Source: Prolixibacteraceae bacterium (lineage in GTDB: Bacteria; Bacteroidota; Bacteroidia; Bacteroidales; Prolixibacteraceae). Taken from it: DNA of 15,697 nucleotides. Positions within the stretch are counted from its first letter, which is position 1; each line of letters opens with the position of its first letter. This document shows positions 75 through 15,590 of the stretch, one piece after another. The stretch covers positions 1-15,697 of the forward strand of contig JAGODU010000096.1 of NCBI GenBank assembly GCA_017998095.1, written 5' to 3'. The notes beneath the pieces were generated by a model. That model saw only the letters and a list, made by a program, of their open reading frames with translations, had not been told where the DNA came from and did not search any database. Both the position numbers and the translations under genes were made by a program.

Positions 75-83
75 TTTTAACCT

Positions 84-120: not shown

Positions 121-128
121 AATACACA
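111..128. repeat. terminal inverted repeat of IS481-like element (left copy)
   Basis: GAAGCTTAGGAATACACA here is the exact reverse complement of 15573-15590. A diverged version, 14 of 18 matches, occurs at 15287-15304. The tip faces the interior of the window. Confidence 0.75.
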
Positions 129-379: not shown

Positions 380-389
380 TTTGAATGGA
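368..389. repeat. ISL3 left inverted repeat
   Basis: This is the left partner of the imperfect repeat ending at 1627. The expected leading GG is TG here, so the outermost base pair is already lost. Confidence 0.65.
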
Positions 390-406
390 CATAGTATACT
401 CTATAC

Positions 407-1657
407 ATGAAAGACCTTGATTTGTTTAAGATGGCGCTAGAACTGGATGAGGAGTGGTTCGTGGTTAAATCGGAATTTATTCCAAAAGACATAAAATTGG
501 ATATTTCCCTCGATTTTAGGCTTGGGGAAGTGCTTCCCTGCCCCGAATGCTCTCTTAAGTCAATGGTCCATGATACTGAGGGGAAAACTTGGCGTCATCT
601 GAATTTCTTTCAGCACGAAGCGTCCTTGCATGCAAGGGTTCCCCGCATCCGCTGTCAGGAACAAGGGATAAAGATGATTGAGATTCCCCGAGCCCTGGAG
701 CAGAGCGGTTTTACCTTGCTTTTTAAAGACTTGATTCTATCCATGGCTGATATCATGCCCGTCAATGCCATCGCGAAGCTGATAGGGAAGACGGACAAGC
801 GGCTTTGGAGAATCATTATCCACTATGTCAACCGTGATCTTGAACAACAAGATCTATCGAAGGTGCGACGAATTGGGGTGGATAAGACATCGACCAAACC
901 GAGCCATAACTACGTCAGCTTCTTTGTGGAAATGGATACCAAGAAAGTTGTATTTGTGACTGAAGGAAAGAAATCCTCATTGGTGCAAGCATTTAAGGAT
1001 CATTTATTGAAGCATCGCGGTGATCAGGAGTTGATCTGGGTATTCTCTTGCGATATGTCGCCCGCCTTCATTGCCGGAATCAAGACCCAGTTACGCACTG
1101 GCAATATTGCCTTCGACCATTTGCCTGTTATGAAATTATTGAACAAATCGCTGGAAGAAGTACACCGACAAGAGCAAGCCATGGAATCAATGCTGAAGGC
1201 AACGCGCTATGTCTGGCTAAAGAATCGGAGCAATCTCATTGCCAAACAGCGAATGAAGCTGGACTCGCTGTCTAATCTGAAACTGAAAACCGCCCGAGCA
1301 TATGGATTGAAGCTTGTATTTCAGAAGGCATTTCCCTACGATGGGAGACTCGGTGTCTATGCGCTCAAAAAATGGTATTTTGGGGCTATTCGATTACAGC
1401 TAGAACCGATTAAACATTTTGCCAGAATTCTCAAGGAGCATTGGGACGGGGTTGCCCGCTGGTTTGAATGTAAACTTAACAATGTACTGCTGGATAGCCT
1501 CAACAGTCTGGTCCAAGCAGCCAAAGCAAGGGCTAGTGGTTACCATTCTACCACAAATTTTAAAACCATGATTTATATGATTGCAGGTAAAGTTTGGGGA
1601 GGCTATCCATATGAAACGTCGAAAAGCCTAATTTTTTCTTCATTAATGCATAAATAA
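407..1657 (+). CDS. ISL3-family transposase (probably inactive)
   Basis: This 416-residue protein has the ISL3 layout: an N-terminal zinc-ribbon region (C45-P-E-C48, then C83), a helix-turn-helix region and a DDE-type core. Core blocks are GVDKTS (D159), SCDMSPAFI, FDHLPVMKLLN (D237) and LLDSLNSLVQAAKARASGY. In the last block ISL3 enzymes normally have the catalytic glutamate (LEGLNS-like), but this copy has D363. The second zinc-ligand pair is incomplete (C83-Q-E-Q86, where His or Cys is usual). The frame runs about ten codons past the right inverted repeat before stopping, so the element's own stop is gone. No ribosome site precedes the ATG; TATACT at 395-400 could be a -10 element. Family assignment is firm, activity doubtful. 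Confidence 0.85.
   Translation: MKDLDLFKMALELDEEWFVVKSEFIPKDIKLDISLDFRLGEVLPCPECSLKSMVHDTEGKTWRHLNFFQHEASLHARVPRIRCQEQGIKMIEIPRALEQSGFTLLFKDLILSMADIMPVNAIAKLIGKTDKRLWRIIIHYVNRDLEQQDLSKVRRIGVDKTSTKPSHNYVSFFVEMDTKKVVFVTEGKKSSLVQAFKDHLLKHRGDQELIWVFSCDMSPAFIAGIKTQLRTGNIAFDHLPVMKLLNKSLEEVHRQEQAMESMLKATRYVWLKNRSNLIAKQRMKLDSLSNLKLKTARAYGLKLVFQKAFPYDGRLGVYALKKWYFGAIRLQLEPIKHFARILKEHWDGVARWFECKLNNVLLDSLNSLVQAAKARASGYHSTTNFKTMIYMIAGKVWGGYPYETSKSLIFSSLMHK
1606..1628. repeat. ISL3 right inverted repeat
   Basis: This right end lies inside the transposase reading frame, which continues through it into flanking DNA. It pairs with 368-389. Confidence 0.65.
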
Positions 1658-1682
1658 AGTTCGTTTTTTGGGTCAGATGAAA

Positions 1683-1691
1683 TGATACAAT
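1683..1691 (+). promoter_or_regulatory. candidate extended -10 promoter of the ssp operon
   Basis: TGATACAAT has the TGn extended -10 motif plus TACAAT, one base from TATAAT. The T-rich stretch at 1663-1668 (GTTTTT) is a poor -35. A start near 1698 would place the strong ribosome site at 1701-1709 just inside the transcript. The site lies about 55 bases past the ISL3 right end. It is the only promoter-like site I see before the operon. The operon's own sigma factor may use a different sequence. Confidence 0.4.
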
Positions 1692-1715
1692 TTAATAGTG
1701 AGGGAGGTGTTTAAT

Positions 1716-3431
1716 TTGTGGTGCAAAAATTGTAATAGAGAAACAGAGGATGAAAAGTGTGAGCTTTGTGGGAGTGTGACTGAACAAGAAATACCATATG
1801 TAGTTTTTTGGTGTGATGAATGTAAAGTGCCAATTATTAAAGCGGCTAACAGTATAGATAAAAATATTTGCACTCTTTGTAATGGAAACACCACTTATCT
1901 TTGTGCTGATTTGCGTCCAGTTTTTCCTGAAGAGAGACTTTTATTAGAAATTATCGGAGCAAAACCGTTTGCTTATCATGACAAAGCTATCTGGGCTTCT
2001 AATAACCGTTATTACATCGATGGAAAAGTAAAGCTGATTACCACCAGTTTTTATAAAAAAATTTCGCCTAAGTCCATTAGGGAGTTGCTAAATCAGTATA
2101 GCGTTCAAAATGATTATTTATATTTTAACCAGTTTATTGAGAGGTTTATAAAAGCAAATCAGGACAGGCTTAATTATCTGAAAGACGAAGCATTCGACTT
2201 TATTCAATCTGCAGCCGAAAAATACCCTCACGAAAGCATTGTTCTTTCTTTCTCGGGTGGCAAGGATTCAACAGTCACAGCAGATTTGGCAGCGAGAGCA
2301 TTAAGCGATCCGAGTCTTGTTCATATTTTTGGGGATACAACTTTAGAATTTCCGCTTACAATGGAGTATGTACAACGATTCCGAAAGAATAATCCAAAAG
2401 CAATTTTTAAGGTAGCTAAAAACAAGGAACAAAATTTTTACAAAGTATGTGAGGATATTGGTCCTCCTGCTCGTATGCTTCGCTGGTGTTGTTCAATGTT
2501 CAAGACGGGTCCGATAACCCGTGTTTTAAACAGTATGTTTCGAGATACAGATATTTTGACCTTTTACGGCATCAGAAAATGTGAATCCGTAAGTCGAAGT
2601 AAGTATAACCGGATTGAGGATAATGCGGAAGCTGTTAAAATACAAAAACAAAAGGTTGCTTCTCCGATTTTTTATTGGAAAGACATTGATATATGGCTTT
2701 ATATATTAGGAGAACAAATAGACTTTAACGATGCTTACAGGTTAGGGTATGACCGTGTGGGATGCTGGTGTTGCCCCAATAATAACGAAAGAGCGCAGCT
2801 TCTTTCGCAGATTTATATGCCGGAACAGGCTGAGAGATGGAGAAATTTTCTTGTGGATTTTGCAAAGAGAATTGGAAAGCCTGATGCAGAGGTTTATGTT
2901 GATACAGGTAAATGGAAAGCTCGGCAAGGCGGAAATGGTGTTGTTGCGGCTGAGGACGTCAAGATAAAATTTACTAACTGTACAGCAGAAGAAAACGCAA
3001 AGATTTATAAGCTAAACAAGCCAGTGGACGATAGCTTTATTCAACTTTTTATTCCTTTTGGCAGAATTGCACCAGAATTAGGTAGAAAGCTTATCAATGA
3101 AACCATTGTGATAGATATAAAAACCAATGTGCCGATACTATCTATTCAGCCTTTTTCGCAGGATGGATACGATTTTGCGGTAAAAGTTAAGACATTGAAT
3201 GTAGCCAAGCACGATGATTTGCAGCGTATGGTTGGCTATCAAGTTAGGAAATTCAATGCCTGTAGAAAATGCTTAAAATGTGAATCTCTGTGCAAGTTTG
3301 GGGCTATCTCAGTCCATGGTGATTCCTATCTTATCAATGAGCAGAAATGCAAACGGTGTAAGATGTGTGTCACCGCTAAGTATTTAGATGGTGGTTGCTT
3401 AATGGAAAAATATTTGAAAACCAAAGACTAA
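1716..3431 (+). CDS. sspD: SspD/DndC-like PAPS-reductase-family sulfurtransferase with ferredoxin tail
   Basis: The expected role is to activate the DNA backbone with ATP and transfer sulfur during phosphorothioation, as the DndC/SspD family does. The 571-residue protein opens with two zinc ribbons (C3, C6, C15, C18 and C33, C36, C52, C55). Next comes a PP-loop ATP pyrophosphatase motif SGGKDST (about 180-186), then RWCC (C258, C259) and GCWCC (C350, C352, C353), cysteine sets typical of a family-specific iron-sulfur site. The C-terminus adds two ferredoxin-type clusters: CxxCxxCxxxC (516-526) and CxxCxxCx9C (545-561). I start at TTG 1716 because AGGGAGGTG (1701-1709) is spaced correctly for it; the upstream GTG at 1698 lies before that site. 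First gene of the operon, 17 bases before sspB. IbrA-type or other PP-loop enzymes are the alternatives, but the neighbours favour SspD. Confidence 0.85.
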   Translation: MWCKNCNRETEDEKCELCGSVTEQEIPYVVFWCDECKVPIIKAANSIDKNICTLCNGNTTYLCADLRPVFPEERLLLEIIGAKPFAYHDKAIWASNNRYYIDGKVKLITTSFYKKISPKSIRELLNQYSVQNDYLYFNQFIERFIKANQDRLNYLKDEAFDFIQSAAEKYPHESIVLSFSGGKDSTVTADLAARALSDPSLVHIFGDTTLEFPLTMEYVQRFRKNNPKAIFKVAKNKEQNFYKVCEDIGPPARMLRWCCSMFKTGPITRVLNSMFRDTDILTFYGIRKCESVSRSKYNRIEDNAEAVKIQKQKVASPIFYWKDIDIWLYILGEQIDFNDAYRLGYDRVGCWCCPNNNERAQLLSQIYMPEQAERWRNFLVDFAKRIGKPDAEVYVDTGKWKARQGGNGVVAAEDVKIKFTNCTAEENAKIYKLNKPVDDSFIQLFIPFGRIAPELGRKLINETIVIDIKTNVPILSIQPFSQDGYDFAVKVKTLNVAKHDDLQRMVGYQVRKFNACRKCLKCESLCKFGAISVHGDSYLINEQKCKRCKMCVTAKYLDGGCLMEKYLKTKD

Positions 3432-3448
3432 TGCTTAGGGGTGTAATA

Positions 3449-4333
3449 ATGAAGTTTAAATTTAGAGCACATGATACATTTTTTATTAGAAAAGGTTGGC
3501 TTAATAAAGGAATGAGAAATGTTAAAAATGACCCACAGGTTTTCATGGGTGTTAACGGAAACCCTATGGACATTTTAGGTATAGGTACAAATATGGTAAA
3601 GGCGTTGCGATATTGGCTTCAGGCGGTTGGACTTACTGAGGAACCACCTGTTGGAAGAAAGGTACAGAAGTTTACCAGTTTTGGTACAGTAGTTTATGAA
3701 AACGATCCCTATTTTGAGGAAATGGGTACGTTGTGGCTTCTTCATTATAAACTTGCCACTAACAAAACGGATGCCACTGCTTGGTATTATTTCTTTAACG
3801 AATTTAAGCTGTCTGAGTTTACAAGAGATGACTTTGTGGTGCAATTAAAAAACTATATTCGTATAAATGATGATGAGGTTTCGGAGCGTTCATTAGAGGA
3901 CGATTACAACTGTATCATTAACACCTATGTACCACGCATTAAAATTAATCCTGAAAAGGTACAGCCGGAAAGTAATATCGATTGTCCTTTAGGTGAGCTT
4001 GGACTTGTTGACATTGTAAATAAAAAGAAAAAGATATACAAAAAAACCACCCCAAAGATAGATACCTTGCATCCACTGATATTGCTTGCAGTTATTGTGG
4101 ATCAGGCTGCGGGTCAGCGTGAAATCAAAATTTCAGCGATTCAAAACAATACTTGTAACGCCGGTAAGGTGTTTAACCTGGATATAATCACACTAACCAA
4201 TCTGCTTTATAAAATAGAACTTATGGGATATATCAAAGTAGTTCGTACTGCAGGACTTGATGTTGTTCGGATTGAAAGAGAAGTAGAATTTTTAGAGTGT
4301 GTAAGAGAATATTACCGAGCAATCAACAATTAA
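3449..4333 (+). CDS. sspB: SspB-like DUF4007 protein, probable PT nickase
   Basis: The 294-residue protein has the DUF4007 signature: FRAHDTFFIRKGWLNKG near the start (5-21) and LGIGTNMVKALRYWL (about 43-57), matching the family pattern HxTFxxRxxWLxKG and LGxGxNMV. The C-terminal part (about 200-294) looks like a winged-helix or mixed fold ending in VVRIEREVEF. In characterised Ssp systems the DUF4007 protein SspB nicks DNA so that one strand can receive sulfur; this function is taken from the family. ATG 3449 follows AGGGGTG at a good distance. An in-frame upstream ATG (3395) lies inside sspD, has no ribosome site and adds residues unlike the family start. Seventeen bases after sspD and 27 before sspC. 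Confidence 0.85.
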   Translation: MKFKFRAHDTFFIRKGWLNKGMRNVKNDPQVFMGVNGNPMDILGIGTNMVKALRYWLQAVGLTEEPPVGRKVQKFTSFGTVVYENDPYFEEMGTLWLLHYKLATNKTDATAWYYFFNEFKLSEFTRDDFVVQLKNYIRINDDEVSERSLEDDYNCIINTYVPRIKINPEKVQPESNIDCPLGELGLVDIVNKKKKIYKKTTPKIDTLHPLILLAVIVDQAAGQREIKISAIQNNTCNAGKVFNLDIITLTNLLYKIELMGYIKVVRTAGLDVVRIEREVEFLECVREYYRAINN

Positions 4334-4360
4334 AACAAAACACATGGGAGAGACAAAATT

Positions 4361-7300
4361 ATGTTTAATGAAAAGATAAATGTTGCAAAAGGTTTTCAAA
4401 CCTCAGTCAACATTGTCTATGATTTATACAATGATGAAAAAGTAAGAAACTTTATTCCAACCACATCGTCCTTTGATGTTATAGAAGATGTGCTCTTTAG
4501 CACGACCAAAAGCGCAACTCAAAGGGCAAGGATATTGATTGGAGCCTATGGTAGGGGTAAATCTCACATAATTCTTGTCTTGATGTCACTTCTTTTCAAA
4601 AAAGATGTGACGTTATTTGATATGCTCTTAAAGAAAATGAAAACACACAACTCAATGCTTTATGAATTTACGGTTGATTATATTAAAAGTGATAAGAAAC
4701 TGCTCCCTATTATTATTAACGGAAGCAGTGCAAGTCTAACTCAGTCTTTCCTCAATGCTTTGCAGCAGGCTTTAAGATCGGAAAACTTAGCTGATTTAAT
4801 GCCTGAAACCAATTTTAAGGCTTCTATCAACACAATAGAGCTTTGGAAGCAAAGCTACCCGGATACCTACGAGAAATTTGCTAATACCTTAAGTGAGCCA
4901 GTGGATAATTTTATTCTCGCATTGAAAGAATATGATGTTAATGCTTATAAACGTTTTGAGAAGTTATACCCTACCCTTACCTCTGGTAGCACCTTTAATC
5001 CCTTTCTCGGATTTGATGTTGTAGAACTTTATGAAAAAGTAGTAGATAAACTTCAGACAAAAGGTTATGACGGTGTTTACATTATATATGACGAGTTTAG
5101 TAAATATTTAGAGTCAAGCATCGCAAGTGCTACTATCAGTGACATTAAGCTGTTACAGGATTTTGCTGAGAAGTGTGACCGTAGTGGAAACAAACAAATT
5201 CATTTAATGCTTATTTGTCATAAGGATATTGCAAATTATATCGACAACAGCCTACCGAAAGAAAAAGTGGATGGATGGCGTGGTGTTTCTGGTAGATTTA
5301 AGCATATTAATCTACATAACGACTTTTCCCAGATGTATGAGATTATTTCTGCTGTTATTAAAAAAGAAGAGGCGTTTTGGAATAAGTTTTGCGAGGAAAA
5401 CAAAGACAGATTTGATGATTTGACTAAACGTTTTACTTTGAACGGAGTTTTGGATGAAAAAGACGAAAATATGGTGCAGACAGCAATCAAAGGCTGCTAT
5501 CCTCTGCATCCTATTTCAACGTTCATATTACCAAGATTATCTGAAAAAGTTGCTCAGAATGAGCGGACCTTGTTTACCTTTCTATCATCGGATCAGAAGT
5601 ACACCCTATCTGAGTTTCTGAAAACAGCAGATGGTAATTTCCCTATGCTTACTCCTGATTACATTTATGACTATTTTGAGCCACTACTTAGAAAAGAGCC
5701 TTATACGAGCGAAACGCATAAGCTGTATAAGCTCACTTCTAATGTACTCCGAAAGGTTGAACCGGACTCTCTTGGAGCAAAGATCATTAAGACAATTTCG
5801 CTTATTTATATCATCGAGCAGTTTGAAAAACTGCCACCTATTTTTAATATTATCGCTGATACTTTCAAAGATAGTGTTAGAGATACTAAAGAAATTAGTA
5901 AAGTATTGTCTGAACTGATTGATAAAGAATGTATCGTTTATCTAAAGCGTAGCAACAATTACTTAAAACTCAAAGAAAGTAGCGGTGTAGATATCCCTGG
6001 TGAAATAATAAAGGCTATTGAGAAAAATAAAAGTACATTAAGCGTAAAGGATATTTTGAATAAATTTACTTTTGACAGTTATATGTATCCGACTCGCTAC
6101 AATGATGAAAATGAAATTACACGTTATTTCGACTTTATTTTTATTGACAGTAATGAATTTTGGGCTGTAGAGAATTGGGAAAGGAAAATCGAAGGAACAG
6201 ATGCAGACGGAATGGTTTACGCCATAATCCCTAATAGTCAAGAAGAAATAGACAATATTAAAAAAGCGTTATTAAGTGGCCAGCACAACCACAATAGAAT
6301 TGTCTTCGTTGTCCCAAATATCTATACCGAAATTGAAAAGATTGCCTATGAGTATAGCGCAGTAAAGCAGCTAAAATCTCTTGTGGTAGATGATGACTTG
6401 CTTTCTGATGAATACGATATTTATATAGAGGATTTAGAGGAAGTTATAGGTAGTTTTATATTTTCTTACATAAGACCTGAAACAGGTGGTGCAGAATACT
6501 TTTATATGGGTGAAAAAAAGAATATTTACCGCAAAGCACAGTTTTCTGCACTTCTTTCAGATATTTGTGAAAGAATCTATCCTTATACACCAATAATCAA
6601 TAATGAGTCCATAAACAAAAATGTTTTGTCTACGGTTGCTATTAATAGCCGTACAAAGTTAATCTCAGCACTTTTAGAGACCGAATTAGACACGAACTTA
6701 GGATTGACGGGGACAGGACAAGATGTATTCATTATGCGAAGTACATTGGTTCAAACAGGAATTTTGCAGAATGCAGACAATGCACCTGTTATTAACTTTA
6801 ATCCTGATGATGCAAATATGCGGAATATGCTGACTACTATACGGAACTTTTTTACAGGTGCGAATATAGGTGGCGGTCAGAGTTTCCGCGTGCTTTATAA
6901 TAAATTAACTCTACCACAAAATGGTATTGGATTGAAAAAGGGAGTTATCCCAATTTATATTGCCATAGTGTTACATCATTATAAAAAGAACTTGGTTATA
7001 AAAAATAAAGGCAACGAAGTAAGAATTACAGCTGATCTTTTAAACAGTATAAATGAAAATCCTGATGAATATTCGGTTTTCTTAGAAGACTGGAACGAGG
7101 AAAAAGCGAAGTACATGACGGAACTTGAAAGCATCTTTAGTGGATATGTTATTGAAAAGGAAAAGACCTATAACAGCTTTTCCTTTATTGTGCTTGCTAT
7201 GAATCGTTGGTATATGTCATTACCAAAGTACGTTAAAGAAATGAGTAAAATTTATTGTGGTATCAATAGAAAGGAATCTTATAAACCTGTTCCTAGAGAA

Positions 7301-7993
7301 CAAAAAAAGTTTATTAATAGCTTAAGACAGATTGATAACAATTCTAGAGAATATCTTTTTGAAAAGATATTTACTTTCTTTGGAATGAATGAGTTTAATC
7401 TCATGATTCTTGATCATATAAAAGCAACTAAACAAGTTTTTGATATGGCTAAGGGCAACCTTATCAATGTGCTAATTTCTGATGTGAAAACTATATTTGG
7501 AGGACAGAACACGAAAAATGCAAGTCTCACCTCTGTTATTAAGGATTGGTATGAATCTCTTGGCGAAAATACTATCAATTATCTGTTTACTAATAATGAA
7601 AGCAAAATCCTTGAGCTGATGAAGTCAATTACCAATGATGAAGTAGCGTTTATGGAACGCTTAGGCAAAGCTGTCACATCTTTGAGGATTGATGATTGGA
7701 ATGAAAACACTATAGAAATGTTCTTAAAGGACTTAGTTGCCTTTAAGGAAACTGTAGATAACTTTGATAAAAATTATGCGAATAGTAACGAAAATGTTTC
7801 CGAAATGTACAGGATTGTTTTTATAGACAAAGATGGTAGCGAGGTAGTTAAGACGTTCAGTAAGACAAAATATAGTGACAGAGCAAAACTGCTCTTGAAC
7901 GAAATTACAACTTCGCTTGAAGAAATGGGGCAGGCTATTTCTGAACAAGAAAAGCGTCAGGTCCTCATGGAACTGCTTGAAAAGATGTGTTAA
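4361..7993 (+). CDS. sspC: SspC-like large P-loop ATPase
   Basis: This 1210-residue protein begins with an AAA+-like NTPase domain. Walker A is GAYGRGKS (61-68) and Walker B IIYDE (D244, E245), followed by a sensor-like LMLICHKD about 40 residues on. The remainder is long and helical, with no second Walker site that I can find. Position between the DUF4007 and cysteine desulfurase genes points to SspC, the ATPase partner of the PT modification complex. The length and N-terminal Walker A in a GxYGxGKS context also recall the large BREX ATPases BrxC/PglY. I see no BREX methyltransferase or phosphatase nearby, so SspC is preferred. GGGAG at 4346-4350 sets the ATG. Confidence 0.75.
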   Translation: MFNEKINVAKGFQTSVNIVYDLYNDEKVRNFIPTTSSFDVIEDVLFSTTKSATQRARILIGAYGRGKSHIILVLMSLLFKKDVTLFDMLLKKMKTHNSMLYEFTVDYIKSDKKLLPIIINGSSASLTQSFLNALQQALRSENLADLMPETNFKASINTIELWKQSYPDTYEKFANTLSEPVDNFILALKEYDVNAYKRFEKLYPTLTSGSTFNPFLGFDVVELYEKVVDKLQTKGYDGVYIIYDEFSKYLESSIASATISDIKLLQDFAEKCDRSGNKQIHLMLICHKDIANYIDNSLPKEKVDGWRGVSGRFKHINLHNDFSQMYEIISAVIKKEEAFWNKFCEENKDRFDDLTKRFTLNGVLDEKDENMVQTAIKGCYPLHPISTFILPRLSEKVAQNERTLFTFLSSDQKYTLSEFLKTADGNFPMLTPDYIYDYFEPLLRKEPYTSETHKLYKLTSNVLRKVEPDSLGAKIIKTISLIYIIEQFEKLPPIFNIIADTFKDSVRDTKEISKVLSELIDKECIVYLKRSNNYLKLKESSGVDIPGEIIKAIEKNKSTLSVKDILNKFTFDSYMYPTRYNDENEITRYFDFIFIDSNEFWAVENWERKIEGTDADGMVYAIIPNSQEEIDNIKKALLSGQHNHNRIVFVVPNIYTEIEKIAYEYSAVKQLKSLVVDDDLLSDEYDIYIEDLEEVIGSFIFSYIRPETGGAEYFYMGEKKNIYRKAQFSALLSDICERIYPYTPIINNESINKNVLSTVAINSRTKLISALLETELDTNLGLTGTGQDVFIMRSTLVQTGILQNADNAPVINFNPDDANMRNMLTTIRNFFTGANIGGGQSFRVLYNKLTLPQNGIGLKKGVIPIYIAIVLHHYKKNLVIKNKGNEVRITADLLNSINENPDEYSVFLEDWNEEKAKYMTELESIFSGYVIEKEKTYNSFSFIVLAMNRWYMSLPKYVKEMSKIYCGINRKESYKPVPREQKKFINSLRQIDNNSREYLFEKIFTFFGMNEFNLMILDHIKATKQVFDMAKGNLINVLISDVKTIFGGQNTKNASLTSVIKDWYESLGENTINYLFTNNESKILELMKSITNDEVAFMERLGKAVTSLRIDDWNENTIEMFLKDLVAFKETVDNFDKNYANSNENVSEMYRIVFIDKDGSEVVKTFSKTKYSDRAKLLLNEITTSLEEMGQAISEQEKRQVLMELLEKMC

Positions 7994-8005
7994 GAGGGGT
8001 TAACA

Positions 8006-9163
8006 TTGAATAAATCCGTATACTTTGATAATGCAGCCACAACATTTCCAAAGCCTGAAGAAGTGTACATATTCATGGATAAATTTTACCGTGAGTGTGG
8101 AGTTAATGTGGGTAGAGGTCAACATAAATTGGCTTTTACCGCAAGTAACCTGATAGCAGAGACAAGGATACTCTTGCAAGATTTGTTTCATTGTCCCAAC
8201 AAAAAGGTAGTCTTTACCCATACAGCGACAGAGGCTCTAAATATTATTTTACAGGGTCTACCTATTGATGATAATTATAATATTTATTTATCGCCTTTTG
8301 AACACAACTCCGTAACAAGGGTAATAAGCTATTTGCAAAGCATTTATAAGCTAAACATCTATACGTTACTGCTGGATAAGACAACTTTTACATATGATTT
8401 AGAGAAAATCAAGTACCAGTTTGCAGAGAATAAGCCCAATATAGTTGTAGTAAGCCATGCAAGCAATGTATGCGGTGTTGTGGCTCCTATTTATGATATT
8501 TGTGTTTTATCAAAGCCTTATGAGGCTATCAATATTATTGATATGTCTCAAACTGCCGGACTGATAGACACTGATTTAAGCAGTGATGCTTTTGACTTTG
8601 CCGTATTTGCCGGTCATAAAACATTGTACGGTCCATTGGGCATAGCTGGCTTTACTTGCTCAGGTAAAGTGAAGCCAGCACCATTACTTTATGGCGGCAC
8701 AGGAGTAGATTCTGCAAATCAGAGCCTGCCTGAAACAATACCTGAAAGGTATGAGGTGGCAAGTCCAAACATCATGGCAATTTCAGGATTAAATGCCGCA
8801 TTAAAATGGATTGATAAAGTTGGTATTAAATCCATTTTAGAAAAGGAAAAGATAAATCATAAAAGGTTGTTAGAAGTATTAAGGAATTTCGACAATATTA
8901 GAATCATCAGTCCAACTAATGAAGACACAACAATAGGTGTAGTATCCTGTGTATTTGACGGCTACAGTAGTGACAGTATCGGGCAAATTTTAACTGAACA
9001 CGATATTGCGGTTAGAACCGGACTACATTGCGCCCCTTCTGCACATCAATTTTTAGGCACTTTTCCTTCTGGTACTGTACGGTTTAGTGTTAGCTATTTT
9101 AATGATGATAGCGACTTTGAAAAGCTACAAGAAGTATTAGAGTATATAGAGGATAATACTTAG
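8006..9163 (+). CDS. sspA: SspA-like cysteine desulfurase
   Basis: This is a PLP-dependent class V aminotransferase-fold enzyme of 385 residues. Near the start it has VYFDNAATTFPKPEEV, the classic desulfurase opening. GHKTLYGPLG carries the PLP-binding lysine K205. RTGLHCAPSAH carries the catalytic cysteine C342 that would hold the persulfide. It would strip sulfur from L-cysteine and pass it to the SspD-like protein. The start is TTG 8006, preceded by AGAGGGGT; no ATG is available before residue 30. It begins 12 bases after sspC, so it is co-transcribed. Not all ssp loci carry their own sspA, and here a dedicated copy is present. NifS/SufS/Csd enzymes for general metabolism are the alternative, but position argues for a dedicated role. 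Confidence 0.9.
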   Translation: MNKSVYFDNAATTFPKPEEVYIFMDKFYRECGVNVGRGQHKLAFTASNLIAETRILLQDLFHCPNKKVVFTHTATEALNIILQGLPIDDNYNIYLSPFEHNSVTRVISYLQSIYKLNIYTLLLDKTTFTYDLEKIKYQFAENKPNIVVVSHASNVCGVVAPIYDICVLSKPYEAINIIDMSQTAGLIDTDLSSDAFDFAVFAGHKTLYGPLGIAGFTCSGKVKPAPLLYGGTGVDSANQSLPETIPERYEVASPNIMAISGLNAALKWIDKVGIKSILEKEKINHKRLLEVLRNFDNIRIISPTNEDTTIGVVSCVFDGYSSDSIGQILTEHDIAVRTGLHCAPSAHQFLGTFPSGTVRFSVSYFNDDSDFEKLQEVLEYIEDNT

Positions 9164-9173
9164 ATGTAAGTAT

Positions 9174-9281
9174 ATGAGAGGAATTGAATTCGAAAATTTT
9201 TTAAATGCCGATTCTAAAATTATCATCAAAGCAAACGCAGTACACTTACTGATTAGCAAGTCCAAAGAGGTAAAACAATGA
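9174..9281 (+). CDS. possible 35-residue small protein
   Basis: In the 114 bases between sspA and the helicase gene, an ATG opens a 35-codon frame (MRGIEFENFLNADS at the start, LLISKSKEVKQ at the end). Its TGA overlaps the helicase ATG as ATGA, a typical translational coupling arrangement. It has a central beta-like III/V stretch and no cysteine or membrane segment. Against it: no ribosome site lies in front, and this is the only start available after an in-frame stop at 9147. It could be chance, a leader peptide for the accessory module, or a true small subunit. Confidence 0.35.
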   Translation: MRGIEFENFLNADSKIIIKANAVHLLISKSKEVKQ

Positions 9282-11473
9282 GCTTGCAGGATATAGAAAT
9301 TAAAAGTGAATATCGCTCACTATTTGATAATGTAGCTAAGGATTTTTATATTCCTTTGTTACAACAAGCTATATCATATAAAAGAGCTGTTGGATTTTTC
9401 TCGTCCTCAGCGCTTGTTGAAATATCTAAAGGCATATCAGCACTTGTGAAAAATGGCGGGAAAATCCTGTTAATAGCTTCCCCGTATTTATCAGCAGAAG
9501 ATGTGGAAGCAATACATAAAGGATATGAATTAAGAGATAACATAATCAAAAAAGCTTTAGTACGTGAGCTGAAAGAAGCGAAAGATGTCTATGAGAAGGA
9601 TAGGCTTAATCTTTTAGCAAATCTTATATCGGATGAGATATTAGACATCAAAATAGCCTTTACAGAAGATAAAAATAAAATGGGAATGTACCATGAAAAG
9701 ATGGGTATTATCAGTGACGATTTTGGTAACAAAGTTGCTTTTTCTGGTTCAATGAATGAGTCAGCAGCGGCTATGACATTAAATTATGAAACTATAGATG
9801 TCTTTTGCTCATGGAAAGGTGAACAAGATCGAGTAGCCGCAAAGGAAAATGCGTTTGCATCTATTTGGAATGACTGTGAACCTAACATTCGGATTATTGA
9901 TTTTCCAAATCTAAAACAAGAAATTATTGATAGATATAAAAAAGCAACTCCTAATTATGATATAGATAAGCATGAGTTTGGAGAAAGAATATATGTATTA
10001 GAGAAAGCAACAAAATATCGTTTAGGACCTGATATTCCACGGAATGTCCAGTTACATGATTACCAAATTAAGGCTATTGATGAATGGGAAAAGCGTGATT
10101 ATAGAGGCATCTTTGATATGGCTACTGGAACAGGTAAGACCTTTACTGGTCTTGGTGCGATAGCAAGATTATCTGAAAGGGTATCAGACAAACTTGCCGT
10201 GATTATCGTTTGTCCATATCAGCATTTGGTTGAGCAATGGGTTGAAGATATTGTAAAATTTAACATGAACCCAATTATTGGTTATAGTGCGTCCTCACAA
10301 AAGGATTGGAAACGCCGATTGGAGGATGCTATAAGAGATCAAAAACTGAAGGTAAGAAACAAAGAATTTTTCTGCTTCATCTGTACAAATGCAACATTTT
10401 CATCGGATTTTGTACAGACTCAAATTAATAAGATAAGAGGCAATGCTTTATTAGTGGTAGATGAGGCTCATAATTTTGGGGCAGAGTATTTAAGTAAGTT
10501 ATTGAGCGAAAAGTTTACATATAGACTTGCATTATCTGCAACGCTTGAAAGACATAACGATGAAGAAGGAACTGCAAAATTATTTTCGTATTTCGGAGAA
10601 AAATGCATCGAATACTCTCTGGATAAAGCAATAGAAGAAAAGAAACTAACCAGATATAAATATTATCCCATCATCGTTACTCTAAATGATGATGAACTTC
10701 GACGATATTCAGAGCTTACCTATGAGATAGGGAAATGCTTAATAAAAGGGGAAAATGGGAAAGTAAAGTTGAGCGAAAAGGGTAAAATTCTTGCGTTGGC
10801 AAGGGCAAGGTTGGTTGCTGGTGCTGAGGATAAAATTACAAAATTAGAGGAATATATTAGGCCATATCTTCATGACAGACATATTTTGGTTTACTGTGGT
10901 GCAACAAAACTACTCCGTGAAAACCAAGACTTTACTACGGTAGATGATGAAGATTTAAGACAAATTGATGTAGTCACTGATTTGCTAGGAAATAAACTCA
11001 ATATGAAAGTATCTCAGTTTACATCTAAAGAAAATGTTGAAGAGCGAGAGATATTAAAAAGAGAGTTTGCAGATGGTGATACTCTTCAAGCCTTAATTGC
11101 GATTAAATGTCTTGACGAGGGTGTAAATATTCCCAAAATAAAAGTCGCATTTATATTAGCAAGTACTACTAACCCAAAAGAATACATTCAAAGGCGAGGC
11201 CGTGTGCTGAGATTAGCTGAAGGTAAGGAATATGCGGAAATTTATGACTTTATCACCCTTCCTCGTCCTCTTGATGATGTACCTTCACTCACAGTGGAGC
11301 AAATGAAAAAGGAATTGTCTTTAGTAAAGAACGAGTTGTGCAGAGCTGAGGAGTTTGCTCGAATTGCTATGAATATGGTTGAGGCTGAGTCAGTTTTAGA
11401 TGAAATTAAAAAAGCTTACTCTATTAACGATAATCTGATTACTTTCGAGGAGGACTTTGATTATGGACAATAG
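9278..11473 (+). CDS. phospholipase-D nuclease / superfamily 2 helicase fusion
   Basis: This 731-residue protein joins two modules. Residues about 1-230 form a PLD-like domain with H139-E-K141 and a following GSMNES, the HxK and GSxN pattern of PLD-type nucleases. From about 255 there is a DEAD/DEAH helicase: ATGTGKT (282-288), DEAH (395-398), SAT (420-422) and QRRGRVLR (638-645). A role as DNA-translocating, possibly DNA-cutting interference factor is likely, and helicase proteins of this general kind are known beside dnd and ssp genes. It may correspond to one of SspF/G/H, but I cannot assign which. GAGG at 9267-9270 supports the ATG. It overlaps the next gene by 11 bases. No frameshifts or missing core motifs. 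Confidence 0.85.
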   Translation: MSLQDIEIKSEYRSLFDNVAKDFYIPLLQQAISYKRAVGFFSSSALVEISKGISALVKNGGKILLIASPYLSAEDVEAIHKGYELRDNIIKKALVRELKEAKDVYEKDRLNLLANLISDEILDIKIAFTEDKNKMGMYHEKMGIISDDFGNKVAFSGSMNESAAAMTLNYETIDVFCSWKGEQDRVAAKENAFASIWNDCEPNIRIIDFPNLKQEIIDRYKKATPNYDIDKHEFGERIYVLEKATKYRLGPDIPRNVQLHDYQIKAIDEWEKRDYRGIFDMATGTGKTFTGLGAIARLSERVSDKLAVIIVCPYQHLVEQWVEDIVKFNMNPIIGYSASSQKDWKRRLEDAIRDQKLKVRNKEFFCFICTNATFSSDFVQTQINKIRGNALLVVDEAHNFGAEYLSKLLSEKFTYRLALSATLERHNDEEGTAKLFSYFGEKCIEYSLDKAIEEKKLTRYKYYPIIVTLNDDELRRYSELTYEIGKCLIKGENGKVKLSEKGKILALARARLVAGAEDKITKLEEYIRPYLHDRHILVYCGATKLLRENQDFTTVDDEDLRQIDVVTDLLGNKLNMKVSQFTSKENVEEREILKREFADGDTLQALIAIKCLDEGVNIPKIKVAFILASTTNPKEYIQRRGRVLRLAEGKEYAEIYDFITLPRPLDDVPSLTVEQMKKELSLVKNELCRAEEFARIAMNMVEAESVLDEIKKAYSINDNLITFEEDFDYGQ

Positions 11474-11642
11474 TAATCCAACAATTATCAATGGTATTGA
11501 AATTGATACCGAAAAGGCACAAAAAATGCTGACAAAATTGATTATGATAGAAAAGAAAAACATCAAAACAAAGCAGTATAATGATGGCGAAATGGTAAAG
11601 ATTATTAAGAAGATGATTGAGGAGGAAGTGCAATGCTATTAA
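11463..11642 (+). CDS. 59-residue conserved-looking small protein
   Basis: A GAGGAGG ribosome site (11447-11453) sits nine bases before ATG 11463. The first 11 bases overlap the end of the helicase gene, and the last 10 overlap the DndD-like gene. The protein is charged and mostly helical, with basic and acidic runs (KKNIKTKQYNDGE, then KKMIEEEVQCY). It has no recognised domain or membrane segment. Strong translation signals and tight coupling on both sides argue that it is real and made in step with its two neighbours, perhaps as an adaptor for the helicase or ATPase. I do not recognise the family. An in-frame TTG at 11457 is less well placed. Confidence 0.7.
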   Translation: MDNSNPTIINGIEIDTEKAQKMLTKLIMIEKKNIKTKQYNDGEMVKIIKKMIEEEVQCY

Positions 11643-13633
11643 GAACATTAAAGCTGAAAGACTTCCGACAGTTTAAAGGCGAACAGACTATATCTTTTGC
11701 TACTGACCCTGTAAAAAACGTTACAGTGATTATGGGTGAAAATGGATCGGGTAAAACTACTCTTGCACAGGCTTTTACCTGGTGCTTATATGGTGATACT
11801 TATTTTGACGATAAATCGATGCTTTGTAAAGCTACTGCACAAGCAATGCTTCCGAATACAGAAGAAACCGTTAGAGTAGAATTGAGTTTAATGCATAGTG
11901 GTATAGAATACACTCTTATTCGTGAACAACGTTATACAAAAGACGGAACCGGAAATTTAAAGCGACCTTATAATACTATATTTAAGATAGCCTATAAAAA
12001 TAGTGATGGTCAGCGTGAATTTGTAAGAGATTTAGAAACCGATATACGAATGAAAGAAATCTTGCCTAAAGAGCTTTCTAAATATTTCTTTTTCGATGGT
12101 GAACGTATTGGGAATATGAGTAAGGAAATTCGAAAAGGTAAGAGTCAAGAATTTGCCCAAGCAGTTAGGGGGTTATTAGGGCTAAGTGCGTTTACTGCCG
12201 CGTTAGATCATTTGAAAGGGCGTGCTCCTAAAGTATCTGTTATTCGTAGTTATGATGAGAGCTATGACTCTAAAAGCGATAGTAAGATTGCCCAGTACAC
12301 AAAAGAAATTGAAGAATGCGACGAGAAAATTGCAGGTATTGAAAAACGGTTAGAAGAAATCGAAAATGAAGAAAGCATTGCCCAAGAGAAATGTAACGAT
12401 TTGAGTGAAAAAATTAAGGCCAATGCAGATAGTGAGCGCTTAGCCAAAGAAAAAGAGCGCCTAAGTCAAAAATTACAAGGGTTAGTGCAGTCTAAGGTCT
12501 CAAATACTGCTTCACTCCTAAAATCTTTTAATAAAGATGCGTCTGCTTATTTTGCTAAGAAGCTAATGAAAGATGCTCTGCAGCAGCTATCGGAAGCAGA
12601 TAAATTAGACAAGGGTATCCCTGATATTCATGCAAGAACTATTGAATTTTTAATTAAACGTGGAATATGTCTTTGTGGAAGTAAAATTGAGGTGGGTAAT
12701 GACGCCTATAAGGAATTAAACAAGATGTTGGAGTTTATACCGCCACAATCAATTGGTGCTTTGATATGTCAGTTTGTAAGAGAATGTGAGTTAAAATGCA
12801 AAAGTTCAGATAGTATGTTTGACGATGTTTCTAATAAATATTCCATGATCAGAGACTTTGAGAACACCTATACAGAAGTTAAAAATGAAATCAAGCTCAT
12901 TGAAGAGAAACTACAAGGAATGGAAAAAGTGGGAGAACTTCAAAAAGACTTAATGAAATATGAAAAAGCATTAAGGCAACTTCGTGAAGAAAGGGATAAT
13001 TTAAATCGTCAAAAAGGTAGTTTGGAAACAACAAAAGAGCGGCGCATTACGGAAAGAAAAGAATTGACTCTGATAGATGCAAATAATAGAAAAATAGAAG
13101 TTTACAAAGCTTACGCCCAATATATGTATGATGTATTAGACACGCTTTATAAGGAAAAAGAAGCTGAGACAAGAGCAGAGCTTGAGAAAACTGTAAATGA
13201 AATCTTTAGAAGCATTTATAACGGTGGATTTTCGCTTTCAATTGATGAAAAATACAATATTCAAATTGTTGTCAACGATTTTGAGGGTTTTAATGAAGAT
13301 ATCGAAACATCGACGGCACAAAGTATCTCAGTTATTTTTGCTTTCATTTCAGGAGTCATAAAAATGGCCCGTCAAAGCAGAAATCCCGAAAATGAAAATG
13401 AGATGTTGGTTTCTGAACCGTACCCTCTGGTTATGGATGCCCCTTTGTCAGCATTTGATAAGAAAAGGATCAAAACTGTTTGTGATATACTACCCAAAGT
13501 CGCTGAACAGGTTATAATTTTTATTAAAGATACAGACGGTGAAATTGCTGAAATAAACATGGGTGAAAAAGTTGGTATGCGTTACTTATTCAACAAAAAG
13601 AATGAGTTTGAAACATATTTATTAACGAGGTGA
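11633..13633 (+). CDS. DndD-like SMC/Rad50-type ATPase
   Basis: This 666-residue protein has the split ATPase layout of SMC/Rad50 proteins. The N-terminal lobe has Walker A GENGSGKT (35-42) and FFFDGERI (D155), a block typical of DndD. A long coiled coil follows (about 230-540), interrupted by a hook-like CLCG (C346, C348). The C-terminal lobe has the signature-like STAQS (560-564) and Walker B VMDAPLSAFD (D602) with its D-loop. DndD-family ATPases act with PT modification or restriction complexes on DNA. Here the protein sits in an Ssp-type locus and may serve the interference arm instead. GAGGAGGAAG just before ATG 11633 is a strong ribosome site. It overlaps the preceding small gene. Confidence 0.85.
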   Translation: MLLRTLKLKDFRQFKGEQTISFATDPVKNVTVIMGENGSGKTTLAQAFTWCLYGDTYFDDKSMLCKATAQAMLPNTEETVRVELSLMHSGIEYTLIREQRYTKDGTGNLKRPYNTIFKIAYKNSDGQREFVRDLETDIRMKEILPKELSKYFFFDGERIGNMSKEIRKGKSQEFAQAVRGLLGLSAFTAALDHLKGRAPKVSVIRSYDESYDSKSDSKIAQYTKEIEECDEKIAGIEKRLEEIENEESIAQEKCNDLSEKIKANADSERLAKEKERLSQKLQGLVQSKVSNTASLLKSFNKDASAYFAKKLMKDALQQLSEADKLDKGIPDIHARTIEFLIKRGICLCGSKIEVGNDAYKELNKMLEFIPPQSIGALICQFVRECELKCKSSDSMFDDVSNKYSMIRDFENTYTEVKNEIKLIEEKLQGMEKVGELQKDLMKYEKALRQLREERDNLNRQKGSLETTKERRITERKELTLIDANNRKIEVYKAYAQYMYDVLDTLYKEKEAETRAELEKTVNEIFRSIYNGGFSLSIDEKYNIQIVVNDFEGFNEDIETSTAQSISVIFAFISGVIKMARQSRNPENENEMLVSEPYPLVMDAPLSAFDKKRIKTVCDILPKVAEQVIIFIKDTDGEIAEINMGEKVGMRYLFNKKNEFETYLLTR

Positions 13634-13638
13634 TAGAA

Positions 13639-14160
13639 GTGTTTGATAAAGAATATTCTTTCAGAGGTATACACGCAGAAAGAGTTATTAAACTTACAGC
13701 TAAATTTGATGGAGATAATCAATTATTTGCAAGGAACCTTGATGTTTACATGGTTGCACCCATTATAGGCTTTTTATATGGTCGCAAGGCTGATTTAGAC
13801 AAAGGTACGGAAACCACCAAAATATTTCCGGATATTCTGATACGTGAACAACTAAATCTCAATTTTAATTATAGGCTGATAATGCTTTTAGATAAGGAAA
13901 ATGAGCCAAATTTTGACGAACGTATGAATAAGGCGTTTCGATATTATGGTAGTGAAAAGGCGCAGTGTGATGAGCAATTATATGAACAGTATGTACGTGG
14001 TGGTGTTGATGTATTATATGAAAAACTCATTGAAACTGCTAGTAACAGTGATGATTACCTAAAAAATCTCTATGATTTTTTAGAAGAATTTGATGAGCGT
14101 TATAACCAAGCTATTAGCACTGATAGTATCTTGGATCTATGCCATTTAGCAAGAAGTTAA
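13639..14160 (+). CDS. unrecognised 173-residue helical protein
   Basis: I do not recognise this family. It is largely helical, with a conserved-looking start (YSFRGIHAERVIKLT), a hydrophobic centre (DVYMVAPIIGFLYGRKAD) and an acidic C-terminus. There is no transmembrane span, signal peptide or cysteine-metal motif. It is not obviously DndE: that family is shorter and I do not see its usual pattern. GTG 13639 is preferred because GAGGTGA (13627-13633) lies five bases upstream. The alternative GTG at 13630 would overlap the DndD-like stop in a GTGA arrangement and add three residues. Placement directly after the DndD-like gene suggests a partner of that ATPase. Confidence 0.75.
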   Translation: MFDKEYSFRGIHAERVIKLTAKFDGDNQLFARNLDVYMVAPIIGFLYGRKADLDKGTETTKIFPDILIREQLNLNFNYRLIMLLDKENEPNFDERMNKAFRYYGSEKAQCDEQLYEQYVRGGVDVLYEKLIETASNSDDYLKNLYDFLEEFDERYNQAISTDSILDLCHLARS

Positions 14161-14164
14161 AGCT

Positions 14165-15265
14165 ATGGCAAGTATATCTCTTCATCAGGAGATAATTGAA
14201 AAACTACATAAAGCCTATAATATCAAAGGATACCTTACTGAGGAAAGTGTTTATGATGCAATTATAGAGTACAATTTACCTTTGGATGAAGTGGAGTATC
14301 TATGTGATCATCTTCTTTCTATGGGTGTGATAATATGTGATGCTTCTATTGAAAATTCGGATGATGACGAAGATGATTATGATCGTAGCCAAACCGATTA
14401 CGATAAGCTATTTCAAGAGGTTGTGGAGATTGATAAGAGTTTAGCTCCATTTATAAACGAGATACGTAAAATAAGGCCTCCACAACGTAGGGAATTGCAG
14501 AATTTAATGCCACATGCTAAGAGTGATAATCATTATGCAAAGCAGCGCATTATTGAAATGTATTTACGAACAGTTGTCAGAATCGCTTTGTGGCATCATA
14601 AAAAGTATAAAATCCCTTTGGCTGATACTATACAAGATGGATGTGTAGGTTTAGTCATTGCTTTAGATAAGTATGATGTTGGTAGGCAAGATGAATTTAT
14701 AACTTATGCTTCCTTGTGGATATGGCAAAATATAATTCGAGCTGCTCCGACATTAAATCCACTGATGTACATACCTGTTAATGTAAAGAACAAATTTTTC
14801 AGTATATATGACATACTTGAAAAGTGTTATCATTGCTATAAATGCGACTGTAATAAGATTTGTTCAGAGGTGTTAAAGGCAGTATCAGAAATATTTGGCT
14901 GTAATGAAGATGAAGCGGAAGAATATATTAATTATCTTAACCCCTTTGAGAGTATTGAAGAATTAATAGAAAAAGATGAGTCTTTATTTTATGATAATTT
15001 TGCTGCTGAAGAACAAATAATTACCAATTTTTTTAAAAAAGAATTAGAAAATACTATTAAGAAAATATTGCAAACATTAAAATCTCGAGAAAAAAAAGTT
15101 ATTTTACTGCGGTATGGATTTGTTGACGGAAAAGAATGGACATTGGAAAAGATCGGAAATGAATTTGGATTGACAAGAGAGCGCGTTAGGCAAATAGAAA
15201 AGATGGCTTTAAAGAAACTACTGCATTTAAACAAAAGTGAAATATTAGAATCTTTTATAAAATAG
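14165..15265 (+). CDS. RpoD-like sigma-70 factor with cysteine cluster
   Basis: This 366-residue protein has the domain order of a housekeeping-type sigma: region 1.1 (about 1-60), an acidic linker (DDDEDDYD), region 2 (DTIQDG at 154-159; YASLWIWQNIIRA at 181-193), region 3, and region 4 with helix-turn-helix TLEKIGNEFGLTRERVRQIE (326-345). At positions that contact the -10 element in E. coli sigma-70, W433 is L184 and T440 is I191, while W434 and Q437 are kept (W185, Q188). R436 is W187. Region 3 carries C221, C224, C227, C229 and C233, absent from usual RpoD. It starts four bases after the 173-residue gene, without a good ribosome site, so coupled translation is likely. It may direct transcription of this operon or redirect the host polymerase during infection; both are inference. 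Confidence 0.85.
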   Translation: MASISLHQEIIEKLHKAYNIKGYLTEESVYDAIIEYNLPLDEVEYLCDHLLSMGVIICDASIENSDDDEDDYDRSQTDYDKLFQEVVEIDKSLAPFINEIRKIRPPQRRELQNLMPHAKSDNHYAKQRIIEMYLRTVVRIALWHHKKYKIPLADTIQDGCVGLVIALDKYDVGRQDEFITYASLWIWQNIIRAAPTLNPLMYIPVNVKNKFFSIYDILEKCYHCYKCDCNKICSEVLKAVSEIFGCNEDEAEEYINYLNPFESIEELIEKDESLFYDNFAAEEQIITNFFKKELENTIKKILQTLKSREKKVILLRYGFVDGKEWTLEKIGNEFGLTRERVRQIEKMALKKLLHLNKSEILESFIK

Positions 15266-15286
15266 TATATATATTTTTAATTTTTA

Positions 15287-15414
15287 TTTTTATTCTTAAC
15301 CTTCTAAATTTATAGTATAATGAAGAATAAGAGGTTAGAGATGGAAGCAGCGTAAAGATCGTATAGTAAAGGTTAAGTGCATTGGACCTTGCTGAAGAAT
15401 TCGGTAGTGTCTCC
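15287..15414 (+). mobile_element. decayed IS481-like relic
   Basis: This stretch aligns without gaps to the left IS tip read on the minus strand. The tip matches 14 of 18 bases (15287-15304), the leader of 36 bases keeps its length, and the gene start ATGGA is at 15341. The transposase start is dead: a one-base deletion and two nonsense changes (AAG to TAG, CAA to TAA) fall in the first ten codons. Once the frame is restored it reads RLSALDLAEEFGSVS against RLSVLELAEQLGSVS in the intact copy. Homology stops near 15414. The orientation is opposite to the two flanking copies. Confidence 0.7.
15341..15414 (+). pseudogene. IS481-like transposase start, inactivated
   Basis: This is the coding part of the relic. 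The single-base loss in GCG-TAA gives M-E-A-A-stop. The rest of the gene is absent. The ribosome site has changed from AGGAGG to AGAGG. Confidence 0.65.
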
Positions 15415-15454
15415 CCCTATTAGTCAAGAAAGTTAGAATATTCTATTTAATGAG

Positions 15455-15500
15455 AAACCAGCCATGAGCCCCTCGGTAAACAAAAAGATGGTGGTTTTTT
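15455..15500 (+). terminator. probable rho-independent terminator
   Basis: AAACCAGCCAT (15455-15465) can pair with ATGGTGGTTT (15488-15497), with one bulged G, and the arm runs into a T stretch to 15500. The loop contains a small GAG/CTC inner pair. No other hairpin-plus-T site is seen after the sigma gene, so this may end the long operon. It could equally belong to a lost IS. The AT-rich 15266-15300 shows no hairpin. Confidence 0.5.
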
Positions 15501-15572
15501 AGAAGATACTCTCGGCTCAAACAGGGAGAATAGTTGCGAAACCAAGAAGTTCTCACTATGCGGCGACTTTTA
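15501..15572. other. unassigned spacer
   Basis: I see no gene or clear repeat between the terminator and the right-hand IS tip. Base composition is higher in GC (CTCGGCTC, GCGGCGAC) than the operon, which suggests DNA of a different origin, possibly from another lost element. Confidence 0.4.
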
Positions 15573-15590
15573 TGTGTATTCCTAAGCTTC
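15573..15590. repeat. terminal inverted repeat of IS481-like element (right copy)
   Basis: Perfect 18-base match, reversed, to the left copy. It contains the stop codon of the transposase gene (15582-15584). Confidence 0.75.

Follow-up and report, generated by a model that had tools for sequence, protein, structure and literature searches.

The window analysed here, a stretch of 15,697 nucleotides from a Prolixibacteraceae bacterium (contig JAGODU010000096.1, positions 1 to 15,697), carries nine genes in a single run on the forward strand, from position 1716 to 15265, in the order sspD-B-C-A, then pbeA-B-C-D, then a gene for a sigma-70 family protein. All nine are open frames and were identified by hidden Markov model (HMM) searches, with pbeB assigned by position only. 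The gaps between genes range from -17 to +27 nt, with the sole exception of the 114 nt between sspA and pbeA. The genes and coordinates given in the initial annotation of this DNA are correct, and its description, in which an Ssp-type set is linked with a sigma gene and with a module of the helicase/DndD-like kind, was confirmed by the HMM matches to these forward-strand frames.

The first four genes are predicted to form a complete Ssp-type modification set with an SspD of the BREX-4 (BrxP) type. SspB is a DUF4007 protein (PF13182, 289.3 bits against a cut-off of 27; PADLOC SspB, E 8.7e-62), SspC an ATPase that matches PADLOC SspC (E 2.7e-125) and BrxC (E 9.2e-54) and has the Walker A motif GAYGRGKS, and SspA a desulfurase with the catalytic-type cysteine motif HCAP (TIGR01977, 408.7 bits against a cut-off of 377; PADLOC SspA, E 1.3e-31). 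SspD, which had been called DndC-like, is indeed of the PAPS-reductase type (PF01507, 106.8 bits) with a PP-loop, SGGKDS, but in PADLOC the BrxP family ranks first (E 6.9e-81, 270.6 bits, versus E 3.4e-14, 51.2 bits, for SspD); these profile searches were run on the frame taken from 1698. Its cysteines fall into an N-terminal Zn-ribbon-like set and a C-terminal 4Fe-4S ferredoxin-like region, and the start sequence ATG/GTG/TTG-TGG-TGC/T stands at the same place in 16 of 23 relatives. All four proteins that define SspABCD are therefore present: a DUF4007 SspB, the SspC ATPase, an SspD with a PP-loop and an SspA with a catalytic cysteine. Judging by these protein families, phosphorothioates would be formed in the host DNA. 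A BREX-4-like arrangement of SspD is noted for a subset of Ssp systems in PMC12839542.

The next four genes are a complete PbeABCD set, in which the helicase is PbeA, the ATPase PbeC and the two small proteins PbeB and PbeD. PbeA matches its PADLOC profile at E 1.4e-252 and contains the motifs HEK, GSMN, DEAH, SAT and QRRGR; its TIGR04095 score of 520 bits is under the cut-off of 600. The ATPase had been read as a DndD-like protein imported from the Dnd branch. We reject this, since PADLOC scores PbeC (E 2.5e-110) far above DndD (E 4.1e-36) and the CxC motif likewise places the protein with the PbeC of the described PbeABCD: it has a CLC Zn-hook at residue 346, in addition to the Walker A motif GENGSGKT, and CxC is present in 31 of 31 PbeC homologues longer than 600 aa. 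DUF4007 was matched. No dndC, dndD or dndE in the window scores over its cut-off (TIGR03185, 112.9 of 245.85 bits; TIGR03183, 38.2 of 290.4 bits), and SspE, SspF, SspG and SspH are not among the PADLOC matches listed for the 10 window proteins (25 of 96 families shown for pbeC). The small proteins, formerly unrecognised, are PbeB, placed by position and size only (61 aa, between PbeA and PbeC), and a PbeD with the DndE fold. A search of PDB sequences with PbeD returned chance matches only; a Foldseek structure search ranked DndE first at E of at least 0.6, and support for the fold came from a VIA-align comparison. Relatives of PbeC in phage records amount to two unannotated faecal phage records. 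PbeABCD was described as a phosphorothioate-dependent effector in archaea, where deletion of individual genes impaired protection (PMC6459918), and was re-annotated in PMC10853773; this half of the operon is therefore already known.

The DndCDEA-PbeABCD system of Haloterrigena jeotgali A29, one of the CxC ABC ATPase-DndE systems, likewise has pbeA-B-C-D complete and in the same order, but there modification is by dndCDEA rather than by Ssp-type genes, and the window adds the sigma gene. SspABCD-SspE and SspABCD-SspFGH share with the window the DUF4007 SspB, SspC, a PAPS-reductase SspD and the cysteine desulfurase; they differ in that the window effector is Pbe, its SspD is the long BrxP type, and no SspE or SspFGH is seen there. 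In common with BREX type 4 (brxP-brxC-pglZ-brxL), the window has DUF4007, an ATPase of the SspC/BrxC kind and an SspD that resembles BrxP for most of its length. We nonetheless rejected a BREX type 4 identity, as neither PglZ nor BrxL is among the matches listed for the 10 window proteins (the Pfam lists being complete). A sigma-70 domain protein is found in the MZA defence locus too, but MzaA is ~700 aa with other partners, and the window protein matches its sigma part only (NCBIfam, 145.2 bits against a cut-off of 800), with no other Mza match among the matches listed. In the open-licence phosphorothioate literature we found no description of the sigma gene or of the Ssp-Pbe pairing, in keeping with the initial annotation, which knew of no phosphorothioate system with such a factor. 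What is new is the pairing of known Ssp and Pbe modules plus a new accessory sigma subunit. To that extent the proposal of a distinct phosphorothioate defence type stands, but the modules themselves are known and the chemistry is not wholly distinct.

The arrangement recurs. A single scan of genome contigs with the window PbeA yielded 35 loci (designated by L numbers), which are close relatives and not a random sample. All eight ssp and pbe genes are present in 20 of the 35 and all except the short pbeB in 24, with order and strand identical in 24 of 24. Because so many loci carry these sets in the same order, the arrangement is more than chance, and the concern that the accessory and sigma genes might adjoin sspBCD only in this genome can be set aside. 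The 24 include near-copies (L010/L013/L018, L022/L035 and L030/L031), an sspD truncated by the contig end (L009) and a locus in pieces (L034). At least one ssp gene occurs in 33 of the 35 loci and none in L029; in L006 the upstream end is too near for a call. The hosts are mostly Clostridia, with further records from Bacilli, Lentisphaerae, Fusobacteria, Actinomycetota and Gastranaerophilales. Among 391 genomes of the nearest genome's class, 6 have PbeA-like matches above 300 bits and 6 have DUF4007 over cut-off; the two lie within 9 kb of each other in 3, the nearest genome itself among them. PbeA relatives (E 1e-60) were found in 20 plasmid records, all of which were examined, and are paired with ssp genes in 2 (L123, Rhizobium; L135, Sphingomonadaceae). 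Other Pbe modules have dnd or methyltransferase genes next to them, or no modification gene that was recognised.

The sigma gene follows the effector. In the 29 of 35 loci with at least 1.1 kb after pbeD, it lies behind pbeD in 21 (in two pieces in L034). On a PbeC tree, where its state is known for 30 rows, its presence takes 2 changes, namely one clade, in which 21 of 22 known-state rows have it, and one loss in L024; on an SspA tree it takes 7 changes over 26 rows, no better than shuffled labels. These are quick trees with SH-aLRT support only, and some of their long branches were flagged. Nature provides a swap in L012, which has ssp proteins 78-90% identical to those of the window, PbeC and PbeD at 40-46%, and no sigma; L019 and L023 have kept Pbe and sigma with quite different ssp genes. 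By descent, the sigma is an inherited member of the Pbe side rather than of the modification genes. A 169-aa gene in the sigma slot of L024 was considered as a region 1.1 fusion and discarded; it is similar by eye and was missed by the N-terminal HMM.

The sigma protein matches PF04545 (60.8 bits) and PF04542 (40 bits), for regions 4 and 2, both over cut-off. It has region 1.1-like, 2, 3 and 4 parts but not the sigma-finger motif of RpoD, and its best fold matches are primary sigmas. On a tree that used 40 database sigma proteins, 9 host RpoDs separate from the other 61 rows with a branch support of 100, which places the window sigma outside the primary sigma (RpoD) group. Residues of 18 operon sigmas (21 minus 3 near-duplicates) were compared with those of 9 host RpoDs, under residue names that we take to be those of E. 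coli. At the reading helix of region 4.2 (R-E-R-Q), 72 of 72 cells agree with host RpoD, as do 110 of 126 at the DNA face of regions 2.3 and 2.4; RpoD letters are kept in only 31 of 72 cells at the beta-prime face (region 2.2) and in 13 of 126 at the sigma-finger motif. The family comprises 666 database proteins at E 0.001 (the best 120 listed). Of 77 plasmid records matched, none had more than 80% of the query covered, and the best 20 of the 77 are unnamed or RpoD/sigma-70 proteins at ~28-35% identity. In region 3, 12 of 20 relatives (L006-L009, L015, L016, L020-L023, L025 and L035) have an (H)xCxxC...C motif, possibly metal-binding, which was not found in the sigmas of L010, L011, L013, L014, L018, L019 and L037; the window and L005 have a shifted Cys-rich run.

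Pieces of the transcription and DNA-topology machinery stand beside other Pbe sets as well. A different protein with sigma region 4 (sigma-4) occurs at seven Pbe loci from Alphaproteobacteria, Lactobacillales, Arthrobacter and Clostridia: upstream of pbeA in L119 (1026 aa), L126 (1017 aa), L127 (732 aa), L120 (1082 aa) and L080 (1334 aa, with three repeats of the alpha C-terminal domain, or alpha-CTD), directly after pbeD in L134 (437 aa) and before sspD in L027 (688 aa). It is in the same gene run as the pbe genes in L119, L126, L120, L127, L134 and L080. By Pfam the alpha-CTD is over cut-off in L080, L134 and L127, under it in L119 and L126, and not found in L120 and L027; Pfam shows no region 2, so these are not whole sigma factors. 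In the plasmid collection, both relatives of the L119 protein (2 of 2 records) adjoin pbe genes. The L120 protein has relatives in 5 records: H50, H52 and H53 adjoin pbe genes, H51 spans the start of the record bearing the L138 pbe genes, and the fifth is H54. On plasmids at least, proteins of this type therefore accompany Pbe. The L134 protein found only itself in that collection, and the 1334-aa protein of L080 found no relative there.

In L023 (Paenibacillus lemnae) the gene after the sigma joins the sigma N-terminal domain (E 1.9e-13 with an HMM built without this protein) to the C-terminal wheel (CTD) of GyrA; the same genome also encodes a GyrA of its own, in a frame of 839 aa with 48% identity. 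The database contains another protein of this kind, P0122, and a GyrA-CTD protein lies upstream of the Pbe set of L136 (Halorhabdus tiamatea). The box QRRGG(R/K)G, presumably the GyrA box, is intact in the three GyrA-CTD proteins examined. The profile of the N-terminal domain also matches host RpoD-type frames, weakly, and the domain common to the sigma and the L023 protein appears to be sigma region 1.1. Archaeal factors were also seen near pbe genes, a TFIIB-family gene two places behind pbeD in Natrinema (L137, 13064-13987) and a TBP gene in Halococcus (L129, 4138-4698). A short PbeA (~458-547 aa), seemingly without the HKD part, occurs in L120, L136, L137 and L138 (alignment range) and in L140 and L141 (length), and a sigma-4, GyrA-CTD or TFIIB gene is near each of these six.

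The operon is probably a recurring antiviral system that marks its own DNA with sulfur and attacks unmarked DNA. By family, SspA would take sulfur from cysteine, SspD would hand this sulfur on to the DNA backbone, and the choice and opening of the modification site would fall to SspB together with the SspC ATPase. If the effector works like the Pbe described earlier, the PbeC-PbeD pair of ATPase and DndE-fold protein would scan DNA and the helicase-HKD protein PbeA would block or cut what is unmarked, the Ssp and Pbe halves being coupled. The sigma may bring or license the Pbe machine at promoter-like DNA, for example the early promoters of an incoming phage. Our tentative preference, a little short of an even call, is for a phosphorothioate restriction-modification system of mixed parentage in which the sigma serves mainly as a promoter-type DNA-recognition subunit of Pbe and not as an ordinary initiator. 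Its observed basis is the gene content, the recurrence, the linkage of the sigma to one PbeC clade, the conserved DNA face, and the sigma-4, alpha-CTD and GyrA-CTD parts beside other Pbe sets. A recognition subunit is favoured because all of these parts recognise or wrap DNA, and because PMC12839542 and PMC10853773 describe BrxL, PglW and a DndH variant as containing sigma-like helix-turn-helix (HTH) or alpha-CTD-like domains.

Several observations weigh against this preference. Of the 29 loci with enough sequence behind pbeD, 8 lack a sigma-type gene, as do L078 and L079, and in 14 of the 20 plasmid Pbe records the stretch examined contains none either (the other 6 include L138, whose copy spans the record start); such a gene is therefore not essential to Pbe. 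The window sigma is 82% identical to the Pseudobacteroides copy, while the other proteins are 95-98% identical, and with a ratio of non-synonymous to synonymous rates (dN/dS) of 0.42 between the two it is the least constrained gene of the run; other pairs give 0.09-0.23, except for a value of 0.50 from a single pair that is very close and differs by few changes. The change lies mostly on the window branch (with L006 as comparison). The window copy also lacks W433 and R436, in the numbering that we assume, and given this loss and the fast change it may be drifting. RNA polymerase-facing residues drift in genuine alternative sigma factors too, so variation on that side alone does not exclude a role in transcription, and a complete sigma with a region 1.1-like domain may simply drive transcription. 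Every PbeA-like match in the 391 genomes falls short of the curated cut-off of 600. In L136 an opposite-strand gene stands between pbeA and the GyrA-CTD gene, and relatives of the GyrA-CTD turn up in 91 plasmid records (most of the best 20 of the 91 bear the name gyrA), so the domain is not specific to Pbe. TFIIB and TBP genes are common on such haloarchaeal plasmids, and their nearness to pbe genes may be chance.

The main rival, possible though on the doubtful side, is that the protein functions as an alternative sigma factor and switches on all or part of the operon under host-transcription stress or phage shut-off, which would keep up the supply of defence proteins. The completeness of the protein, its preserved promoter-reading residues and its place as last gene of the run accord with this, as does the sigma-type MzaA of another defence system (an NCBIfam match). 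Phage JSS1 is reported to suppress dndFGH transcription through its protein JSS1_004 (PMC12345140), which also fits. However, no promoter signature separates the sigma-bearing operons from the others. We found no sigma-specific promoter upstream of sspD in 22 upstream stretches (the window, 12 relatives that have the sigma, and 9 that lack it or were untested for it): in 16 of the 22 the best -35/-10 score was reached by at least 45 of 200 crude two-base-block shuffles, and TGTCC/GGACA half-sites occur with and without sigma alike. Moreover, loci that have exchanged their modification genes keep the sigma together with Pbe, and a regulator of the operon leaves the sigma-4/alpha-CTD proteins without region 2 and the GyrA-CTD fusion unexplained.

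An unlikely explanation is that the sigma, alpha-CTD/sigma-4 and GyrA-CTD proteins are baits that mimic host parts targeted by phages, so that a phage inhibitor would set off the Pbe nuclease. Phages attack the host machines to which all three belong; anti-sigma proteins, ADP-ribosylation of alpha and gyrase inhibitors are means of phage takeover. The window sigma changes fast, as a bait might, but its DNA-contact residues are the best conserved and the GyrA box is intact in three proteins, and a mere bait needs neither. The N-terminal domain common to the sigma and the adjoining L023 protein would be expected of a common hook, yet it is homologous to region 1.1 of host RpoD and need not be special; and we know of no phage partner, which also counts against a bait. 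That Ssp, Pbe and sigma are defence-island neighbours with separate jobs, or the sigma a passenger, is very improbable: defence genes do cluster, Pbe also stands beside dnd, methyltransferase or no recognised modification genes and the sigma can be missing (8 of 29 loci), but the genes from pbeA to the sigma overlap or lie 4 nt apart, the order is kept in 24 of 35 loci, and 21 of 22 known-state rows of one PbeC clade have the sigma.

More broadly, and rather less than an even call, Pbe machines across bacteria, perhaps also haloarchaea, may adopt pieces of transcription initiation and DNA topology (a whole sigma, sigma-4 with alpha-CTD, the GyrA-CTD wrap domain) as exchangeable recognition or bait subunits. 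If so, a restriction system would home in on promoters, or respond when phages attack the host's machinery, instead of relying on fixed sequence alone, and the sigma, alpha-CTD and GyrA-CTD modules would come together in one functional setting. Wang et al. count 2,211 of 2,678 sspBCD sets (printed as 83.9%) without SspE or SspFGH and suggest further effectors (PMC8092258); Some of these sets may use Pbe, a concrete candidate in view of the 3 genomes, out of the 6 with DUF4007 over cut-off, in which a PbeA-like gene lies within 9 kb. The passages of Xiong et al. on Pbe leave open how it stops virus without visible cleavage and which partners serve 320 of 553 solitary PbeAC sets (PMC6459918). 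A promoter-reading subunit, if confirmed, would be a testable answer on how Pbe chooses its target.

Table 1. Features of the window, by position from its first letter.
Feature	Description	Position	Strand	Basis
ISL3 transposase	directly upstream of operon	407-1657		
native stretch	upstream of sspD, common to Pseudobacteroides	1629..1715	+	
sspD	BrxP-type PAPS-reductase-like sulfurtransferase, TTG start	1716..3431	+	HMM, motifs, start by relatives
sspB	DUF4007 DNA-binding protein	3449..4333	+	PF13182, PADLOC SspB
sspC	large AAA ATPase	4361..7993	+	PADLOC SspC, Walker A
sspA	cysteine desulfurase	8006..9163	+	TIGR01977, PADLOC SspA, HCAP motif
frame remnant	short, 35 codons	9174..9281	+	comparison with relatives
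pbeA	HKD (PLD) nuclease domain fused to SF2 helicase	9278..11473	+	PADLOC PbeA, motifs
pbeB	61-aa small protein	11457..11642	+	position, similar frames in 26 related loci
pbeC	CxC-type ABC ATPase	11633..13633	+	PADLOC PbeC, Walker A, Zn-hook
pbeD	DndE-fold partner of ABC ATPase	13630..14160	+	
sigma gene	sigma-70 family protein	14165..15265	+	PF04542, PF04545

Upstream of the operon, the ISL3 transposase frame crosses the junction at 1628/1629 into the native flank. A small Cro/CI-type HTH gene precedes sspD in L005 (by Pfam) and in L020, L022 and L035 (by eye), and the insertion sequence has separated the window operon from this regulator gene. Two inverted-repeat pairs join the ends of the window, 1-61 with 15353-15413 (74%) and 99-129 with 15572-15602 (84%); they are perhaps remnants of mobile elements flanking the operon. 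Between sspA and pbeA, L005 (9681-10004), L013 and L018 have a reading frame of 96-107 aa; in the window 35 codons of it are left, and other relatives have it in broken or shorter form. A promoter had been considered in the 300-nt sspA-pbeA gap and was rejected, as the gap in those three loci is this frame.

Additional genes accompany some of the related operons. A DndB homologue (by Pfam in L013, L022 and L025, by similarity elsewhere) follows the sigma in L011, L013, L018, L022, L034 and L035 and lies between sspC and sspA in L009; it comes with a ~175-aa partner (a weak GIY-YIG match in L022), and L025 has the DndB-like gene only. GmrSD_N (DUF262) proteins of two kinds occur in or near Ssp-Pbe operons (L008 at 7502, L030 and L031 at 14952, L038 at 214, L020 at 16064 and L024 at 15644), followed in L020 and L024 by a protein-kinase-like gene. 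On a Treponema plasmid (L125, 16031-27888), the genes behind sspD-B-C-A encode a DEAD helicase, an ATP-binding protein and a PLD protein separately, and may represent a Pbe-like effector in split form.

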